From contig SCPD01000003.1 in NCBI GenBank assembly GCA_005502925.1, positions 62,001 through 126,000 on the forward strand: a stretch of 64,000 nt of DNA, in the 5' to 3' direction. The stretch is from Rhizobiales bacterium Y(2018) (GTDB taxonomy: Bacteria; Pseudomonadota; Alphaproteobacteria; Rhizobiales; Aestuariivirgaceae). The notes beneath the pieces are model-generated. The model was given only the letters and a program-made list of their open reading frames with translations, was not told the DNA's origin and ran no database searches. Position numbers and translations under genes: made by a program. Shown one piece after another: positions 52,821-60,484 of this stretch (position 1 is the first letter of the stretch; each line of letters opens with the position of its first letter).

Positions 52821-53836
52821 CGATCAGCCGTCCGCATCCCGTCCGCGTTCCGGCGGCCGCGCATCAGTTCGTCTTCGCCCCCGACGCGGTGCCGGCGCTC
52901 CATATCCGTTCCGGCGACACGATCCTTGTCGAGACGCTCGACTGCTTCTCGGGGCGCCTCACCCCCGAAAGCCCGCTTTTGCGGGACGATCGTGATGTGC
53001 TCGATCATATTGGCGGGCGCTACAACCCGGTGAACCGGCCGATCTTCGTCACCGAGGCCGAACCCGGCGACGTGCTCGCCGTCGACATCATCGACATCGC
53101 ACTCGGCGCCCGGCAAGGCTTTGCGGTGACCCATGTGGCGGATGACTGGGCGCGGCAGTTCGGCGGTGAGGATTTCGCCGGCAGCGTGGCGCCGGCAACG
53201 GTCATCGCCCGGCTCGATGGTGGCACGGTAATGCTGCCCTTCGGTGACCGGCTCGTCGCCTGCGCCGCGCGGCCGATGATCGGCACCATCGGGACGGCGC
53301 CTACCCAGTCGATCAGCTCGCTCCTCTACGGTGCATCGCATGGCGGCAATCTCGATTGTCCGCTCATCCGCCCGGGCGCGACCGTGCATCTCCCCGTCAA
53401 TGTGCCGGGCGCGCTCCTCTCTTTGGGCGATGTCCACGCCTTGATGGGCGACGGCGAGATCACCGGCACCGCGCTCGAAACCAGCGCCGATGTAACGATC
53501 CGGGTGCGGGTGGAGAAGAACCGTCGCCTCTCCCTGGCGACACCGCGTTTGAGCGACGACGAGCGCCTGGGCTCGCTCGGCTGCGCGGCGCGTGGGAGCC
53601 TGCAGACCAATATCCAGTTCGCCGTCCGCGATCTGGCGCTCAGCCTGGAACAGACTTGCGGGCTCTCACCGGGTGATGCGCTTCAGCTCTTCAATCTCTT
53701 CGGTCGGATCACCGTCAACCAGGCCGTCGGCAGCGATGTGGATGGCTGGTCGAGCGTGCTGGCGCATATTGCCAGAAGTGATCTCGAGCGCGTGCTTTCC
53801 GTTACTTCACCATCGCCGGCATCGCGGCATTCATGA
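52817..53836 (+). CDS. Acetamidase/formamidase family amidohydrolase
   Basis: 339 residues of the FmdA/AmdA family: HIRSGDTILVETLDCFSG, NRPIFVTEAEPGDVLAVDII and the LGDVHALMGDGEITGTALE segment are hallmarks. These Zn enzymes hydrolyse formamide, acetamide or related short amides to ammonia and acid. The start ATG at 52817 overlaps the DppF-like stop by 4 bases; it is the last gene of the transporter operon, so the imported amide is probably cleaved here or by the nitrilase. Its last 35 bases overlap the convergent glutamine-amidotransferase gene. Confidence 0.92.
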
Positions 53837-54530
53837 AGCCGCGATAGAGTGTCCGCGCATTGGCGATGAAGCCGGGCATCAATGGCTCCGCCTCCTTGGC
53901 CAGGGCCTGCAACGCGTCAGGGCCGCGCACCCTGGCGAGCGCTTCCTCATAGGCCGGCACCTTGCCCCAATCGGGAATGGTCGAAGCCTCGAGCTCGACA
54001 TGATACTGCATCGAATATGTGTGACGGCCGATACGCATCGCCTGGATCGCACAGACATCGGAACGCGCCAGAATGACCGCGTCCTCGGGCGCCTGCGCCA
54101 CCTTCACGCTGTGCCACTGCAGAGCCTTCATCTGATGCGGCAACCCTGAGAAGGCCGGATCGCTCTTGCCGGCTTCAGTGAGCTCGATATCGAGAATGCC
54201 GACTTCCGGCGGACGCTGCGGTCCACAGGTGCCGCCCAACGCATCGGCGAGCAACTGGTGGCCGAGGCACACGCCAAGGAAAGGCCGTTTCAATTCCCGC
54301 ACCCATTTGCGGATGGCACGCTTCTCAGGGATGAGCCAGGGATGTTCCTCGACATCCCACACATCCATGGGCCCGCCCATGACCCAGAGCATGTCATAGG
54401 CCTCGAGCGGCGGAATGACGCCGCCCTCGTCGAGCTCGACGGCGTCCCAGCTGATGCCGTCTTCCTTCAGGAAACTGCGCAGGACAGCCGGGTGTTCGCA
54501 AGCGAGATGCTGGAAGACAAGGAGTTTCAT
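53802..54530 (-). CDS. Type 1 glutamine amidotransferase-like protein
   Basis: 242 residues. Class I GATase fold with catalytic Cys88 (FLGVCLGHQLLA), His177 and Glu179 (MQYHVELEAS). The WVMGGPMDVWDVEEHPWL segment is the oxyanion region. Stand-alone members include GMP synthase-like proteins and gamma-glutamyl hydrolases such as PuuD; here the partner and amide acceptor are unknown. Start at 54530 (MKLLVFQHLA). Overlaps the acetamidase 3' end by 35 bases on the opposite strand. Confidence 0.9.
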   Translation of the reverse strand: MKLLVFQHLACEHPAVLRSFLKEDGISWDAVELDEGGVIPPLEAYDMLWVMGGPMDVWDVEEHPWLIPEKRAIRKWVRELKRPFLGVCLGHQLLADALGGTCGPQRPPEVGILDIELTEAGKSDPAFSGLPHQMKALQWHSVKVAQAPEDAVILARSDVCAIQAMRIGRHTYSMQYHVELEASTIPDWGKVPAYEEALARVRGPDALQALAKEAEPLMPGFIANARTLYRGFMNAAMPAMVK

Positions 54531-54597
54531 GCCCAATCCCTGGCGCTCAAATGGCGATAACAAATGTCAGTCTATCGAGAAAGTCGCTAAGCGTAAA

Positions 54598-55380
54598 TCA
54601 TTTGCAACGGGCCTTATGACGGTTGATTGTCGCGAGATCGGCGACGTAGTTGCCGTTGCGATCGACACCACCCCAGGTCTCGCGCCGTATCTCGACATCA
54701 TGACGCTGCTTGAACGCCGCCAATTCGTCGCGCGGATCGATTCCCATCTTTGCGGCAAGAGCCATATTAGGGCCGCGCCCCACCGGCCGCGTGTGGACAA
54801 CAGGGCTCTCATCGATCACCGCAATCCCGCGCTCGGGATAGCCAAGCAGCTTCGGAAACAACAAATCCGGACCCCAGGAAGTGGCCGTCGCGGCAAAATA
54901 AGGGGCACAAAGATCAAGAGCCTTGCGCGAGAAACACGCAGCCATGACCTCGACGAAACTCGTATAACGCAGTCGCATATGGGGGCGGCGCACGGTGATC
55001 TCATGCGATACGTATGAGCCTTCGTCCAGAGCCGGTTGCGCCAGATCCAGATCATATTGGGCCACGATCTCGAAGAAGCGATTGATCGTCGGCAGATCCG
55101 CGGACAGATCGTCATCCGGCAGCCAGAACCAGTCATAGTGGTCTATCCGGCTTCCGAGCCTCGCCAGACACTCCGCCGTGCCGATCGCCTTGGTGCCCTT
55201 CTCAAAAGATAAGGTGATGTCTGAGGCCCGGTTCCGATAGGGTCGCCGCAGATCACCGAAATAGCTTACATGCAAATCCCAATTGCGCTTCTGCAGCGGC
55301 GGTTGCACCAGCCATTGGGGATGCAGGGATTGATCACCGGCGCGCACAATGACAAGAACGCGCCGTTCAGTTGCCGTCAT
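54598..55380 (-). CDS. DUF707-like putative glycosyltransferase
   Basis: 260 residues. The central DYDWFWLPDDDLSADL-like stretch (DHYDWFWLPDDDL) is the acidic cluster of the DUF707 family (PF05212), with GT-A-like character; SWGPDLLFPKLLGYPERGIAVIDESPVVHTRPVG follows. In this family glycosyltransferase function is suspected, not shown. No signal peptide. 60 bases downstream of the sortase gene on the minus strand; co-transcription is possible but unproven. Confidence 0.72.
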   Translation of the reverse strand: MTATERRVLVIVRAGDQSLHPQWLVQPPLQKRNWDLHVSYFGDLRRPYRNRASDITLSFEKGTKAIGTAECLARLGSRIDHYDWFWLPDDDLSADLPTINRFFEIVAQYDLDLAQPALDEGSYVSHEITVRRPHMRLRYTSFVEVMAACFSRKALDLCAPYFAATATSWGPDLLFPKLLGYPERGIAVIDESPVVHTRPVGRGPNMALAAKMGIDPRDELAAFKQRHDVEIRRETWGGVDRNGNYVADLATINRHKARCK

Positions 55381-55440: not shown

Positions 55441-56250
55441 TCAATAGAGTTTGGCGCGGGCGATCTTCTTGCTGTCGCCGAACATCGCGGACGGCTTCAG
55501 GCGCGCATGAACGACATAACGTAACGGTCCGCCGAGCTGGCTATCGAGAGGCCAGCAGGTGGCGAGTGCCAGATTGTAGCCCGGTGCGCCGGCATCGATC
55601 TTCGACTGGTCCCAGCGCACGATCTCGGCTCCTGTCGTCTCGTAGGTAAAGGTGATGCCGTCATCGCGGGTGACCTTGATCTCGTCACCCACCTTGAGAT
55701 CACCGAGGAAACGGAAATGCGTGTCGCGATGGGCGGCATAAACCGTCGTGCCACGCTGGCCGGGCTTGGGCGTTTGCGCCAGATGACCCGGGCCGAAGGC
55801 CAGTGCCTGGCCGCTGCCGCCAGCAAGCGCAATCGCCGATGCCTGAAGACGCGGCACCGCGATGCGCGCCACCGGCCAGGTATCGGCCCAGCTCCAGGGC
55901 TTGACCGGCTTGCCGGTGGTGACGCTTTCCGCGAAAGCGCGGTCGAGCAGGATCTGCGCCAATCCCGCCTTCGCCTTGATCCACAAGCCCTCGCCGAGAA
56001 AACCGATACCGAGGACCGCACAGAGAAGAGAAAGCACCAGGAAGAGCTTGGGACTGGCCTTGCGGGTCTCAGCTTCGCTCCTCTCCCCGGACTTTCGCCC
56101 GGGGAGGGAGAGCGAGCCGACCGCCGTCCGTAGTCCGTTCTGTTCGGCGGTGGCCTTCGCCATCCGGTGTTGCAGTTCCTCGAGAGCCTTGCGGGCGCGG
56201 CGCGAGCGCCGCATCCAGAAGACCGGCATCTGGTCGATCCCGCTGCTCAT
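55441..56250 (-). CDS. Class GN-type sortase of a proteobacterial sortase/target system
   Basis: 269 residues. A membrane helix (about 69-90) precedes a sortase beta-barrel with catalytic His174 (YAAHRDTHFRFLG), Cys232 (LATCWPLD) and Arg244 (PLRYVVHA). The HRDTHF motif and the adjacent VIT/VWA gene are typical of the Gram-negative dedicated sortase systems (class GN). A sortase cuts a C-terminal LPxT-like signal and transfers the protein to another group. The acceptor in Gram-negatives is unknown. The N-terminal cytosolic linker contains an inserted palindrome (56075-56116) encoding about 14 residues. ATGA overlap with the target gene. Confidence 0.9.
   Translation of the reverse strand: MSSGIDQMPVFWMRRSRRARKALEELQHRMAKATAEQNGLRTAVGSLSLPGRKSGERSEAETRKASPKLFLVLSLLCAVLGIGFLGEGLWIKAKAGLAQILLDRAFAESVTTGKPVKPWSWADTWPVARIAVPRLQASAIALAGGSGQALAFGPGHLAQTPKPGQRGTTVYAAHRDTHFRFLGDLKVGDEIKVTRDDGITFTYETTGAEIVRWDQSKIDAGAPGYNLALATCWPLDSQLGGPLRYVVHARLKPSAMFGDSKKIARAKLY
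56075..56116. repeat. Palindromic element inside the sortase coding sequence
   Basis: CTCCCCGG (56083-56090) pairs with CCGGGGAG (56099-56106), and TCGCTC with GAGCGA further out, forming a long dyad with a small internal mismatch. This resembles intergenic palindromes found across rhizobial genomes, but it is in frame here and translates as part of residues 45-60 (LSLPGRKSGERSEAE) in a linker before the membrane helix. Confidence 0.6.
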
Positions 56251-58388
56251 GCGAGCCTCGCGCGCCGGCTGAGGACTGCGAAGATCAGCGCGAACAGCGA
56301 CAGGAGCGCACCTAGGAACATCAGCAGCTCCGAGGGCGTCGCCGTCTGCGGCAGGTCGACCGTCTTCACCGCATTCACATCATGGCTCACGGGCGTCTTG
56401 CTCATCGCGATCAGCGTGACATCGAGCTTGGCGTCACGCTGAAGCACTTCCGGTGTCTGCTCCTCGCCGAACACCTTGTCGTAGTGCCAACCGACCGGGA
56501 GATTGAGCGGGACATCGGCGCGGCTCAGCTTCTCGCCGGGCTGGCGCGACGGCGCCTTGTCGATTGCGACGAGGCTCGATACACGGCTGACCAGATGATG
56601 TTCGAGAGCGAGCGCCAGGATGCGCTTGTCGGCTTCATCGGGCTTTATCGTGCCCATGGTCTGTGCCACTTCAGCATCATCGATCTTGCGCCGCGCCCAG
56701 AGCTTGGCGATGCCGGAACCAGGCTCGGCCTTGGCAAGCGGCAAGCTCGCCTGCCAATCACGGCCGGCGACCTTGGCGGAGAGCGTCAAGGTGCCTTTGC
56801 GCTCCGGCATTTTCATCAGGAAGAGCACCGGCTCACCCTGATAGATGTCGGGCAGCATGGCGGGCGTCACTTCCGCCGAAGCCTGGTCGAAATGCGCTTT
56901 CAGATTCGTCACGGCGGGATTTTCGAGCTTGGCGAAGAGCTCGCGCATGCGGTCCTCGACCTGGCCGCCCGCGCCGATCATCGCATAGCTGCCACGGCCG
57001 AGCTCGGCGGCGCGCGTCATCAGATAGGAGTTGGGCGCCGAACCGATGCCCACCATGAAGACGCGTGAGCGGCCGCGCATGGCGCTTAATATGTCGAACA
57101 TCTCCTGCTCATTGGCGATGGCGCCGTCAGTGATGAACACGACCTGGCGGAGCGTGGTCTCGTCGTCGGGCCGCGCATCGCGCAGGGCCGCGCGCAAGGG
57201 CGGGATCATCTCGGTGCCACCCGATGCTTCAAGGCGGCCGACGAAGTTCTTCGCCGTCTCGACATTGTCGCGGCTGGCCGTGACGGTGTCGGGAAAGAGA
57301 ATGTCCATCGTGTCGTCGAAGCGGATGACATTGAACCGGTCGGCGGAATCGAGCCGGCCCAGCGCATAGAGCAGGCTTGCTTTCGCCTGCGACATCGACG
57401 GGCCGCCCATCGAGCCCGAATTGTCGATGACGAAGACGACATCGCGCGGCATGCGCTTCTCGCTCGTTGTCGCGGCCGGCGGCGTCACATAAGCGAGCGC
57501 ATAGTCGGTGCCGTTCACTCGTTCGCTGAAGAGACCGATCTCGGGGGCCGCGCCCTGTACCGGCTTCCAGGTGAGCTCGAAGTCACGATCGGCGAATTCG
57601 GACCGCGCCAGCGTGACTACCTTGCCGCCTTCGGATGCCGCTTCCGCGGTCACGTCATGGAAGGAGCTCGTGACCTCGCCCAGAGCAAAGCCGGGATTGA
57701 GATGCACGGTGAGCGTCAGGGGATTGACGGGGTCGGATTTGCGCGGATCGAGCACCGGCGGCGTGATCCGGTCACGATCCGGGATACTGTCCCTGACGGT
57801 GTAATACTGTGCGTTCTCCGACAGCACGATCTTGGGGGTGGGCACATAGCGTGGCGCGACGACGGTCGGCACCCGGAGAGAAAACACGCCACCCGACTGC
57901 GCCACCGCCTCCTGATATTCGATCTGGATGACGATGGTCTCGCCGGGGCCGATATTGGCGACCTGGTTGGTGAAGACATTGGCGCGTTCCTGGTCGAGGA
58001 GTGCCGCCTTCTGGCCTTTGGCCTTGGCCTCCTCGTAGATCTGCTTGGCTTCCTGGCGCTCCTTGATATCGCCGACGATGACGCGGTCGCCGATCACCAT
58101 CTTGAGCGTATCGACGGCAGCCTTCTCCGACAGAGGGAACACATAGGTGCCTTCGATCCAGCCATTGGTCGGATTCTTGAACTTCTGGGTGACACGCGTG
58201 CGGGCAATAGGCCCGGTCACGGTGATGTCGAAATCGGTGGCGACCCTGGGCGCTTCGACATACTTCCCGGGCTCGTTGGTGGTGAGCAGCAAGGCGCCCG
58301 TGCCCATTTGCGAGGGCGTGACAAGGCCGGCGCCGGCGCTGAGCGTCATGGCAATGACACCCAGCAGGGTCAGCAACAATCGGTACAT
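56247..58388 (-). CDS. Secreted VIT/VWA protein with C-terminal sortase signal
   Basis: 713 residues. Signal peptide (MYRLLLTLLGVIAMTLSAGAG); vault/inter-alpha-trypsin (VIT) domain at about 35-165 (WIEGTYVFPLSEKAAVD); VWA domain at about 315-490 with MIDAS DNSGS at 322-326. The C-terminus holds LPQTA (679-683), a hydrophobic helix (about 688-707) and a basic tail SRRARLA, a classic sorting signal layout. It is the expected substrate of the sortase encoded immediately downstream. VIT/VWA proteins bind other proteins or ions. Start at 58388 is set by the signal peptide. Confidence 0.93.
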   Translation of the reverse strand: MYRLLLTLLGVIAMTLSAGAGLVTPSQMGTGALLLTTNEPGKYVEAPRVATDFDITVTGPIARTRVTQKFKNPTNGWIEGTYVFPLSEKAAVDTLKMVIGDRVIVGDIKERQEAKQIYEEAKAKGQKAALLDQERANVFTNQVANIGPGETIVIQIEYQEAVAQSGGVFSLRVPTVVAPRYVPTPKIVLSENAQYYTVRDSIPDRDRITPPVLDPRKSDPVNPLTLTVHLNPGFALGEVTSSFHDVTAEAASEGGKVVTLARSEFADRDFELTWKPVQGAAPEIGLFSERVNGTDYALAYVTPPAATTSEKRMPRDVVFVIDNSGSMGGPSMSQAKASLLYALGRLDSADRFNVIRFDDTMDILFPDTVTASRDNVETAKNFVGRLEASGGTEMIPPLRAALRDARPDDETTLRQVVFITDGAIANEQEMFDILSAMRGRSRVFMVGIGSAPNSYLMTRAAELGRGSYAMIGAGGQVEDRMRELFAKLENPAVTNLKAHFDQASAEVTPAMLPDIYQGEPVLFLMKMPERKGTLTLSAKVAGRDWQASLPLAKAEPGSGIAKLWARRKIDDAEVAQTMGTIKPDEADKRILALALEHHLVSRVSSLVAIDKAPSRQPGEKLSRADVPLNLPVGWHYDKVFGEEQTPEVLQRDAKLDVTLIAMSKTPVSHDVNAVKTVDLPQTATPSELLMFLGALLSLFALIFAVLSRRARLA

Positions 58389-58599
58389 GATGATTTCCGC
58401 TCCATAACGGCCCCCCGATCCCGGGTGGTCCGTGGCTTCATCATGTGGGGCCAGAAGCGGCTGCGCCGCGAGCGGGCAATCCGCCATTCTTCCGTCGCGT
58501 CTTGCCGCTACGTGGCGGAGCTTGCCTTGTTTTGGACAGGTCCTTGTGGAAATGTACGGATTTGTACGGCCTCCCTCTCCTTAAGGTTTTGCCCGTCCG
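58389..58599. other. Divergent region between the sortase-target and HTH genes
   Basis: 211 bases without a gene. It contains the direct repeat TGTACGG (58553-58559, 58563-58569), listed separately. Promoters for both divergent genes should lie here. Confidence 0.4.
58553..58569 (+). promoter_or_regulatory. TGTACGG direct repeat upstream of HTH gene
   Basis: TGTACGG-ATT-TGTACGG, two identical heptamers with a 10-base period, 31 bases upstream of the HTH gene start and about 165 bases upstream of the target gene. Candidate binding site for the adjacent HTH protein. Confidence 0.4.
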
Positions 58600-59361
58600 A
58601 TGACCGACCAGACCCTCTCGGCTGAAGAAAACGATGCCGTGGCGGATATGGTGCGCGAGGCGCTCGCCCGCCGCCGCATCACAAGGCAATATCTCGCCGA
58701 TCAGGCTAAGATCAGCCTCTCGACACTGGAGAAGGCGCTGTCCGGACAACGCCCCTTCACGCTCGCCAGCATCGTCAGGCTCGAAGCGGCACTGGGCCTC
58801 ACCCTCAGGCGGGCGACACCCGCCAAGCTCGCCGCCGCCTCGCGCTTCACCGGCATCGCGCCTGAGGATCTGGGCTCCTATGCGAGGCCAGCGGTGTCGT
58901 GGATCGAAGGCGACTACGTGACGGTCCGCCCCTCCTTCTCCAATCCCGATTCCATCTATGCCTATCTAACCTGCATCGCCTGGAACGAGGAAAAGTCACA
59001 TCTCACTTTCAAGGAGAGCGAACGGGTCGATGCCGCCTTCACCCAGGATGGCAATGTGTCGATCCCGCATCAGTCGGGCTATATCTATCTCATCACCAAT
59101 AAGCTCGGGCAGTATCGCTTCGTCATCATCTCACGTCCGACCATCGCGGGCGAGATGTTCGGCATTTTGACGACGCTGCAATCCGGCCGCGGCATGCATC
59201 TGACTCCCGTCGCGACGCCGATCATCCTGGTTCCGGCCAAGACGCTCGGCGGCAGTCCCGCTTATGGTCGCGTCGAGAAAGGCCATTCGTTTTATGCCAA
59301 ATACAAGGCTTATGTGACACGCGCCTTGGAAGAGCCCTTCGCGCTTTTCGTCGCGAAGTGA
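58600..59361 (+). CDS. XRE/Cro-type HTH protein with unknown C-terminal domain
   Basis: 253 residues. An N-terminal helix-turn-helix at about 25-75 (ITRQYLADQAKISLSTLEKALSGQRPFTLASIVRLEAAL) followed by about 165 residues with no recognised family: WIEGDYVTVRPSFSNPDSIYAYLTCIAWNEEKSHLTF looks like a beta-rich sensor domain. No signal peptide or membrane helix. Divergent from the sortase-target gene, so control of the sortase system is plausible. The usual histidine kinase and response regulator seen near class GN sortases were not found here. Confidence 0.78.
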   Translation: MTDQTLSAEENDAVADMVREALARRRITRQYLADQAKISLSTLEKALSGQRPFTLASIVRLEAALGLTLRRATPAKLAAASRFTGIAPEDLGSYARPAVSWIEGDYVTVRPSFSNPDSIYAYLTCIAWNEEKSHLTFKESERVDAAFTQDGNVSIPHQSGYIYLITNKLGQYRFVIISRPTIAGEMFGILTTLQSGRGMHLTPVATPIILVPAKTLGGSPAYGRVEKGHSFYAKYKAYVTRALEEPFALFVAK

Positions 59362-59365
59362 TCAT

Positions 59366-60484
59366 TCAACTCCAGCCGACGAGCTCCAGCAGCCAGTGCA
59401 GGCCATAGGCCAGGCCTCCCGCTGCCGGGAAGGTCAGGATCCAGGCCCAGACGATGCGCTCGATCACCGTCCATTTGAGGGCGCGTGAGGACTTGGCGAA
59501 GCCGACGCCCATGATCGCCGTCGAGATGCTGTGGGTGGTCGAGACCGGCATGCCGAAATGCGCCGCCACGGTGAGGATCGTCGCCGAGCTCGTTTCGGCG
59601 GCGAAGCCGTGGATCGGATGCAGCTTCACCATCTTGTGGCCGAGCGTCTTGATGATGCGCCAGCCGCCAGCCGCCGTGCCCGCCGCCATGACCAGCGCGC
59701 AGGAGACGATGATCCAGCTGTCGATGCCGTCCTTGCCGGGATCGGGCTCGAGGAAACGCGCCCATTCCGGCAGCCCTTGGAGCGCTCCGGCGCTCTCGGC
59801 TCCCAGCAGAGCAAGCGCAATGATGCCCATGGTCTTCTGCGCGTCATTGCGGCCATGGGCGAGGCCCATATAAGCGGCGGAAGCGAGCTGCGCCTTGCCG
59901 AAGACGGCATTGACCCAGACCGGCCGCGCCAGCCGCCCTAAGAGGCCACCGGCTTTCGCCATGCCGGCGATGAGCGCCCACAGCCCCACCATCATGATGA
60001 TGCCGAGCGTGAAACCCGCCACCGGCGAGGTCACCATGGGCAGCAGAACTTTCCACAGGAGGCCTTCGTTCTTCGTCCAGTCACCGACGGTCCTCGACCA
60101 GATGAGCGCGCCCCAGTTGTTGTCGGCGGCGGCCAAAGCGGCACCGCACAGGCCACCGATCAACGCATGCGAGGAGGAAGACGGAAGGCCGCGCCACCAA
60201 GTGAAGAGATTCCAGATGATGCCGCCCAGAAGCGCGCAGAGGATCACCTGCAAGCTGACATTGACGACGCCGGTGTCGACCAGGCCCGAAGAGATGGTCT
60301 TGGCCACCGCCGTGCCCCAGAAGGCGCCGATCAGATTGGTGACGGCCGCCAGCATGATGGCCTGGGCCGGCGACAGGACCTTGGTGGCGACCACGGTGGC
60401 GATGGAGTTGGCCGTGTCGTGGAAGCCGTTGATGAATTCGAAGACCAGCGCTATCAGCACGACGGTCAGAACGAGGATCAGCAT
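59366..60484 (-). CDS. PitA-type low-affinity inorganic phosphate transporter
   Basis: 372 residues, about ten to eleven membrane helices with the Pit family inverted repeats: FINGFHDTANSIATVVATKVLSP in the first and GLAHGRNDAQKTMGIIALAL and GMPVSTTHSISTAIMGVG in the second. It imports phosphate (metal-phosphate symport). Last gene of a five-gene minus-strand unit, 10 bases after DUF47, the classic DUF47-Pit pair. The Pho-box-like site at 63581 may drive the whole unit. Confidence 0.96.
   Translation of the reverse strand: MLILVLTVVLIALVFEFINGFHDTANSIATVVATKVLSPAQAIMLAAVTNLIGAFWGTAVAKTISSGLVDTGVVNVSLQVILCALLGGIIWNLFTWWRGLPSSSSHALIGGLCGAALAAADNNWGALIWSRTVGDWTKNEGLLWKVLLPMVTSPVAGFTLGIIMMVGLWALIAGMAKAGGLLGRLARPVWVNAVFGKAQLASAAYMGLAHGRNDAQKTMGIIALALLGAESAGALQGLPEWARFLEPDPGKDGIDSWIIVSCALVMAAGTAAGGWRIIKTLGHKMVKLHPIHGFAAETSSATILTVAAHFGMPVSTTHSISTAIMGVGFAKSSRALKWTVIERIVWAWILTFPAAGGLAYGLHWLLELVGWS

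Follow-up and report, generated by a model that had tools for sequence, protein, structure and literature searches.

A divergent XRE-type regulator gene with a putative direct-repeat operator accompanies a class GN sortase and its dedicated target in one alphaproteobacterial clade

Introduction

Class GN sortases are regarded as poorly described, and their role in Gram-negative bacteria as unknown, in the passages considered of PMC10581121. The closest described arrangement is the Proteobacterial dedicated sortase system, in which a sortase (TIGR03784) is paired with a single adjacent VIT/VWA-domain target (TIGR03788), as at the locus described below, and which further comprises a response regulator (TIGR03787), a histidine kinase (TIGR03785) and the OmpA-like protein PdsO (TIGR03789). 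A strictly Gram-negative dedicated sortase with a vault/VIT-VWA substrate, reported in the passages available of PMC3237569, shares the TIGR03784 family, the adjacent genes and the LPXTG-type signal with this locus. The locus lies in a stretch of 64,000 nucleotides (contig SCPD01000003.1 of Rhizobiales bacterium Y(2018)), hereafter called the window, to which all positions refer unless a locus handle is given. In the window, a sortase gene and its target gene are accompanied by a divergent gene encoding a helix-turn-helix (HTH) protein, which the original prediction, made from the letters of the window, had placed in the role of the missing two-component pair. The three-gene arrangement is confirmed here, while the interpretation as a whole is partly supported. 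The sortase-target pair belongs to a known, poorly characterised system; what appears to be new is the HTH regulator with its putative operator. Among the titles and abstract openings listed from the open-access literature, a scope that leaves most subscription journals outside, none connects a class GN sortase with a regulator of the HTH type.

Results

The core of the locus consists of the following features, with family calls made by Pfam and NCBIfam profile searches and judged by curated cut-offs:

55441 to 56250, minus strand: class GN sortase, 269 residues; TIGR03784, 191.3 bits (cut-off 158.25); triad columns conserved
56247 to 56250, minus strand: ATGA shared by the sortase start and the target stop, read from the sequence; presumed translational coupling
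56247 to 58388, minus strand: dedicated sortase target, 713 residues; TIGR03788, 792.5 bits (cut-off 551.65)
58543 to 58569, plus strand: proposed operator of direct repeats with a 10-bp period, from repeat counts across loci
58600 to 59361, plus strand: XRE/Cro-type HTH regulator, 253 residues, divergent from the target; PF01381

The HTH gene recurs beside the pair in related bacteria. When the best 80 of at least 234 relatives were considered as named loci, it was found beside the target gene in 49, divergently in 43 and co-directionally, i.e. downstream of the sortase gene, in 6. Named loci with the HTH gene span Bradyrhizobium, Caulobacter, Brevundimonas, Methylobacterium, Phyllobacterium, Rhizobium tropici and the Sphingomonadales, and in a further Bradyrhizobium locus (L159) the contig is cut before the place of the HTH gene. 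Nitrobacteraceae contribute 24 of the 80 loci, and many loci are near-copies. Among 100 relatives, the sortase cut-off was exceeded in 28 genomes, with the HTH gene beside the pair in 19, not beside it in 8 and its place cut by a contig end in one (G056). Close HTH homologues were present in 24 of these 100 genomes: 19 linked, two next to a target gene truncated by a contig end (G005, G049) and three unlinked (G008, G027, G060), G049 and G060 carrying a second, unlinked copy; five more genomes had remote homologues only. In a phylum-wide sample, the HTH gene was located near the sortase gene in 14 of 19 alphaproteobacterial genomes with a sortase match (in one, G601, about 7 kb away) and in none of the 17 loci fetched from 18 non-alphaproteobacterial genomes. 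The HTH-target-sortase cassette was also observed in records titled Bacillus subtilis SK6B4 (L177, JAHREI010000001.1) and Frankia sp. RB7 (L169, JAUEPE010000033.1); as the cassette is otherwise seen in alphaproteobacteria, these records are probably mislabelled or contaminated.

HTH-linked targets fall into one clade. In a quick tree of 104 target sequences, thinned at 78% identity plus the window, 36 HTH-linked rows group in a single set of 37 with a support of 100 in the Shimodaira-Hasegawa-like approximate likelihood ratio test (SH-aLRT), the one support measure used, and the label "HTH-linked" requires 2 changes on the tree versus about 30 with shuffled labels. The 37th row, G601, which stands among Methylobacterium rows, has an HTH gene that lies downstream of the sortase gene, at a distance of about 7 kb and on the same strand (L341, 3306 to 4121 and 11098 to 11697), and the trait is therefore complete among the sampled members of the set, which mixes Hyphomicrobiales, Caulobacterales and Sphingomonadales. 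In plasmid records with the HTH gene, the target gene was adjacent in 12 of 12; two plasmids that were looked up, one of them conjugative, carry an annotated HTH regulator, sortase target and class GN sortase. Flanking gene layouts vary between lineages while the trio stays together. At loci without the HTH gene, a single protein cluster is the most frequent neighbour within a distance of four genes (49 of 93 loci versus 1 of 73 loci with the HTH gene); the one member of it that was scanned is a class I/II aminotransferase.

Tandem TGTNCGG units precede the HTH genes at a spacing of 10 bp, giving the repeat pattern TGTNCGGNNN. The window has three units, at 58543-58549 (degenerate), 58553-58559 and 58563-58569; the latter two read TGTACGG, are separated by ATT and together constitute the sole exact TGTNCGGNNNTGTNCGG in the 7.1-Mb genome, whereas the near-identical genome G003 has one mismatch in the pair. 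In 74 HTH-upstream regions, five of them from unlinked HTH genes, two units at period 10 scored at least 10 of 12 in 60 (about 1.4 expected) and at least 11 in 45 (about 0.1 expected). A scan of periods 8 to 23 gave 60 regions for period 10 and 53 for period 20, the next being period 19 with 12. The unit had been derived before counting, from the window site of the original prediction and from the same loci that were counted, and the controls are first-order Markov resamplings as opposed to exact shuffles. Owing to the near-copies, the repeat was recounted after removal of HTH proteins more than 70% identical: 19 of 23 non-redundant linked loci scored at least 10, where 0.33 were expected and the largest of 100 resamplings gave 2; of 4 non-redundant unlinked HTH loci, 1 reached this score. 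Upstream of target genes, on either strand, the same score was reached at 60 of 68 HTH-linked loci and at 6 of 95 loci without the HTH gene (3.3 expected for the latter). Two of these six are kin of HTH-linked loci whose HTH place lies outside the piece considered, namely the Bradyrhizobium locus with the cut contig (L159) and L294, for which the locus data show this.

At 48 divergent loci with a strong site, the repeat has the relative strand also seen at co-directional loci, and its distance to the start of the target gene is 64 to 199 bp, with a median of 124 bp. At eight co-directional loci, a repeat pair was found upstream of the target gene in six, on the minus strand and at 57 to 196 bp, and on the plus strand in none of the eight; these loci are close kin and hence count as about one event. 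A wider regulon was rejected: the 22 genomes searched, 20 of which carry the HTH gene, contain 26 exact pairs (8 at the locus, 18 elsewhere) versus 27 for the reversed control pattern, a genome-wide count confined to exact as opposed to degenerate sites. The original prediction had pointed to 58553 to 58569 as a site to be checked for binding of the HTH protein, and with the conserved repeat and the single exact pair in the genome this site is a likely operator, at which binding is predicted. Likewise, conserved linkage, a single clade, plasmids and the repeat speak for the proposed link of the HTH protein to the locus, so that a regulator tied to the locus is well supported on comparative-genomic grounds.

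Next, the regulatory partners of the described system were considered. Of the 18 non-alphaproteobacterial genomes with a sortase match (over the family cut-off in 15, below in 3), all had a TIGR03785 kinase at E <= 1e-60, 12 of them over the cut-off of that model, and in 10 the kinase gene lies within 10 kb of the sortase gene. By contrast, none of 68 alphaproteobacterial genomes with a sortase match (over the family cut-off in 61, below in 7) reached the cut-off or E <= 1e-60 in a search that scored at most 14 candidates per genome, the best match having 184.7 versus 612.2 bits, and a dedicated kinase in alphaproteobacterial genomes was thus rejected. The genome of the window, one of these 68, has no TIGR03785 kinase over the cut-off, the search there covering the kinase and not the TIGR03787 response regulator. 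PdsO exceeded its cut-off in 10 of the 18 non-alphaproteobacterial and in 0 of 34 alphaproteobacterial genomes searched, and its best match in the genome of the window has 68.2 bits, below the cut-off of 152.2. The non-alphaproteobacterial locus L307 has a neighbour for each of the three models: 1031 bits for the kinase, 400 for the response regulator and 262 for PdsO, all over the cut-offs. The kinase of the two-component companion named in the original prediction is thus matched outside the alphaproteobacteria and, in the genomes searched, not within them, and the comparison of regulator types it had suggested places the HTH gene in one alphaproteobacterial clade, many alphaproteobacterial loci having neither the TIGR03785 kinase nor the HTH gene. 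One alphaproteobacterial locus without the HTH gene (L281, 3379-5433) has an OmpR/EnvZ-like pair near the sortase gene, below the cut-offs of the models.

Two domains of the regulator were delineated:

58651 to 58806, plus strand: HTH DNA-binding domain, PF01381 at residues 18-69; AlphaFold2 model and structural matches
58852 to 59358, plus strand: C-terminal domain, predicted beta-barrel and presumed ligand sensor; AlphaFold2 and Foldseek

The HTH_3 match has 23.6 bits (cut-off 23), and outside the HTH no Pfam or NCBIfam model matches over its cut-off. AlphaFold2 modelled the whole regulator with a mean predicted local distance difference test score (pLDDT) of 89.1 and the C-terminal domain alone with a mean pLDDT of 92.2 and a predicted template modelling score (pTM) of 0.88. 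The best Foldseek match of the C-terminal domain is OlmO (E 1.5e-3, template modelling (TM) score 0.43), followed, among the 50 matches listed, mostly by fatty-acid-binding proteins (FABPs) and lipocalins with TM scores of 0.33 to 0.45. Judged by the model, the domain is probably a small-molecule barrel of weakly calycin-like fold. Size and orientation of the HTH protein are as originally described, and its presumed sensor domain, then called unknown, is without a family match and weakly calycin-like in the model. For the HTH domain, the best structural matches include C.AhdI and C.BclI.

Relatives of the regulator were also observed in other surroundings. Remote homologues (27-30% identity) with the same C-terminal domain are located at L119 1362-2114, L121 2165-2977 and L123 9329-10243; the first two adjoin lepA, the third is one gene away from it. 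HTH relatives at L112 9376-10122, L113 9815-10636 and L115 10426-11172 have neither sortase nor target, and the repeat is missing; in L115 the neighbouring genes encode a DUF4153 protein and a class I lysyl-tRNA synthetase, a layout that L112 and L113 seem to share.

The target displays the features expected of a sortase substrate:

57915 to 58238, minus strand: VIT domain (approximate), PF08487, 125.9 bits
56982 to 57443, minus strand: VWA domain (approximate), PF13768 (VWA_3), 70.9 bits
57411 to 57425, minus strand: metal ion-dependent adhesion site (MIDAS), DNSGS, in the VWA domain
56256 to 56354, minus strand: C-terminal sorting signal, best TIGR01167 match of the genome

The sorting signal comprises LPQTA (56340-56354), a hydrophobic helix (about 56265-56336) and the basic tail RRAR (56256-56267). 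Although the reading frame is open up to 58487, a signal-peptide-like start (MYRLLLTLLGVIAMTLSAGAG), judged by eye, follows the ATG at 58388, and the target is therefore probably the 713-residue protein starting there (56247-58388) and not the longest open reading frame from 58487. The target features listed in the original prediction, from the putative signal peptide to the basic tail and including the ATGA junction, are all present. When the genome was scanned with the LPXTG-anchor model TIGR01167, 14 matches at E <= 10 were obtained, the target being the best and the only one in which the LPXT end is aligned (from profile position 2); the others begin at position 4 or later. Read as a table of matches to this model, the motif being sought no more widely, the scan leaves the sortase with one dedicated substrate in its own genome. 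LPxTA or LPxTG is present in 61 of 68 HTH-linked targets counted, and some targets carry LPxGS, LPxGA or no clear motif. A motif of the form LP.[TSGN] near the C-terminus is lacking in 2 of the 68 HTH-linked targets and in 12 targets without the HTH gene; L130, L257, L273, L280, L293 and others are the loci concerned in the two groups, and judging by their tails, a few of these targets look like frame or contig artefacts.

The sortase, which matches the Pfam Sortase family with 92 bits and is the only one above the Pfam cut-off in its genome, has one further feature:

about 55981 to 56055, minus strand: single N-terminal membrane helix, judged by eye

His174 is encoded at 55729-55731, Cys232 at 55555-55557 and Arg244 at 55519-55521. 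Across 164 aligned sequences, i.e. the window sortase and 163 homologues from the fetched loci, the first of these columns contains H throughout (164 of 164), while the other two contain C in 163 and R in 158 sequences and are otherwise gaps (1 and 6, respectively). By TIGR03784 score and conserved residues the protein is a class GN member, as originally called, with predicted transpeptidase activity.

Gram-negative bacteria had been said to lack the Gram-positive cell-wall acceptor. This premise is not supported: meso-diaminopimelate is also present in Gram-negative peptidoglycan, which makes it the leading and, by analogy, the obvious acceptor candidate. According to the passages considered of PMC3297441, the amine that serves as acceptor in bacilli and listeria belongs to the meso-diaminopimelate side chain.

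As regards the surroundings, the phosphate transporter gene (59366-60484), the DUF707 gene (54598-55380) and the gene at 53802-54563 were rejected as parts of the system: in a neighbour comparison of the regions around the fetched loci, a few of which lacked gene calls, their occurrence next to the trio was limited to the same genus. The DUF707 gene lies 3' of the sortase gene in the window and in G001 and was not seen in G002. A gap of 4 bp separates the end of the HTH gene from that of the PHO4-type phosphate transporter gene, which is convergent with it (59361-59366).

Discussion

We consider it likely that the three genes form a cassette in which the sortase anchors the target in the envelope, while a dedicated XRE-type regulator binds the repeats, controls the trio and senses a ligand. 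After export, the target would stay at the periplasmic face of the inner membrane, tethered by its C-terminal helix. The sortase would cut LPQTA between threonine and alanine and move the new C-terminal threonine of the target onto an envelope amine, for which the side chain of meso-diaminopimelate, in lipid II or peptidoglycan, is the most likely source; the pair thus probably fixes one protein to the cell envelope. As a one-component regulator dedicated to the pair, the divergent protein would bind two or three TGTNCGGNNN repeats between the genes, which, being about one helical turn apart, would place it head to tail on one face of the DNA. It would control its own gene and the target-sortase operon, and may respond to a small molecule bound in the C-terminal barrel.

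Several observations weigh against this scheme. In a class-wide sample of 385 genomes, 44 had a sortase match and only three had the HTH gene, all three sortase-positive and linked, in an alignment search that scored at most seven candidates per genome. Because of this scoring limit, 39 of the other 41 sortase loci were fetched and scanned directly, two weak fragments (G223, G299) being left out; no HTH gene was found in them, although in at least five of these 39 cases the fetched piece stops within the target or less than 500 bp upstream of it, so that the gene could be missed. Most sortase loci in that sample are therefore without it. Moreover, five genes of the HTH family live away from any target, and the family is accordingly not exclusively sortase-linked. 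Four of the 23 non-redundant linked loci score below 10 for the repeat, one of which (L118) has it at the gene start, where a 150-bp cut misses it; two of the eight co-directional loci lack it upstream of the target; and the exact pair is present at the locus in just 8 of the 20 HTH-bearing genomes searched. The median operator-target distance of 124 bp at the divergent loci fits activation and repression alike, the structural match of the barrel is weak, the acceptor stands as a candidate, and binding, expression and processing are all predicted from sequence here.

Control of the target-sortase operon could instead reside in a general envelope two-component system such as ExoS/ChvI, with the HTH protein as a minor modulator, a reading that we regard as doubtful. 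It draws on SMc01580 of Sinorhizobium meliloti, for which the literature was considered in passages: this gene is named, with reference to earlier work, as one of three with ChvI-bound upstream regions (PMC3687685), is treated as a ChvI regulon member with a reporter that goes up at pH 6 (PMC10659215), belongs to an acid-induced cluster (PMC2651895) and is matched at 80% with an Ensifer adhaerens protein called "marine proteobacterial sortase target protein" (PMC6637203). The EnvZ/OmpR-like pair near the sortase gene of L281 points in the same direction. However, three Ensifer loci (L173, L174, L183) have no HTH gene beside them, and the S. meliloti data are taken from the literature. SMc01580 is also listed among the genes changed in a mutant without phosphatidylcholine (PMC8343143). 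Taken together, the acid, ChvI and phosphatidylcholine-mutant reports suggest, by analogy, that the target may be an envelope-stress protein whose control has been rewired.

It seems unlikely, too, that sortase and target are a periplasmic protease-substrate pair, in which the target is released by hydrolysis or by transfer to a soluble amine instead of being anchored. The deviating or absent motifs of some targets would fit release, and the literature passages considered contain no report of attachment in a Gram-negative bacterium. Against it, the transpeptidase triad is kept wherever its columns are filled, and LPxTA or LPxTG prevails among HTH-linked targets.

A further possibility, that the HTH protein acts on its own gene alone (or on other genes) and is merely carried along with the pair by shared descent, appears quite improbable. 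The operator in the window ends 30 bp before the HTH start and more than 150 bp from the target start, and the target-less members of the family would suit such a reading. Yet the trio persists on plasmids and amid flanking layouts that differ between lineages, and where the HTH gene has its place downstream of the sortase gene, a second repeat, of the same relative strand, precedes the target gene at six of the eight loci, even if this amounts to about one event. A mere chance neighbourhood was rejected in view of linkage, clade, plasmids and repeat. The cassette with a dedicated regulator is the favoured reading.

A bolder version has a mobile cassette whose XRE regulator uses a calycin-like lipid-sensing barrel to detect a lipid intermediate of the envelope and reads a head-to-tail direct-repeat operator with as many as three units. 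This is speculative and has in our estimate a minor chance of being correct; if true, a lipid-sensing XRE regulator would couple covalent envelope decoration to the state of the envelope without a membrane kinase.

Three modes of controlling class GN systems appear to exist: a two-component pair in non-alphaproteobacterial proteobacteria, the XRE regulator in one alphaproteobacterial clade and, as reported, ChvI in S. meliloti, which makes envelope stress a possible shared theme. Together, the regulator gene and the shared DNA site can help to find out when the system is put to use. With a dedicated regulator and its operator defined, one class GN system could be switched on and its signal traced, and a system switched on in this manner could yield enough processed target to address the anchor.

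How does the proposed regulator compare with known proteins and systems? Its HTH domain is similar to the restriction-modification controllers C.AhdI and C.BclI, a likeness that concerns the HTH part alone (matched chains of 66-77 residues, 62-65 columns aligned), with the operators outside the comparison. MltR, an XRE-type one-component regulator with bound myristate (PMC3406030), also joins an HTH to a further, possibly ligand-binding domain; the likeness is one of layout, as the fold predicted here is a weakly calycin-like barrel. Compared with the vault/VIT-VWA system, for which the passages of PMC3237569 name no regulator, the present locus has an XRE-type regulator. Finally, in the Proteobacterial dedicated sortase system the pair is joined by kinase and PdsO, which are below the cut-offs in the alphaproteobacterial genomes searched, whereas here it is accompanied by an XRE-type regulator and a putative direct-repeat operator.

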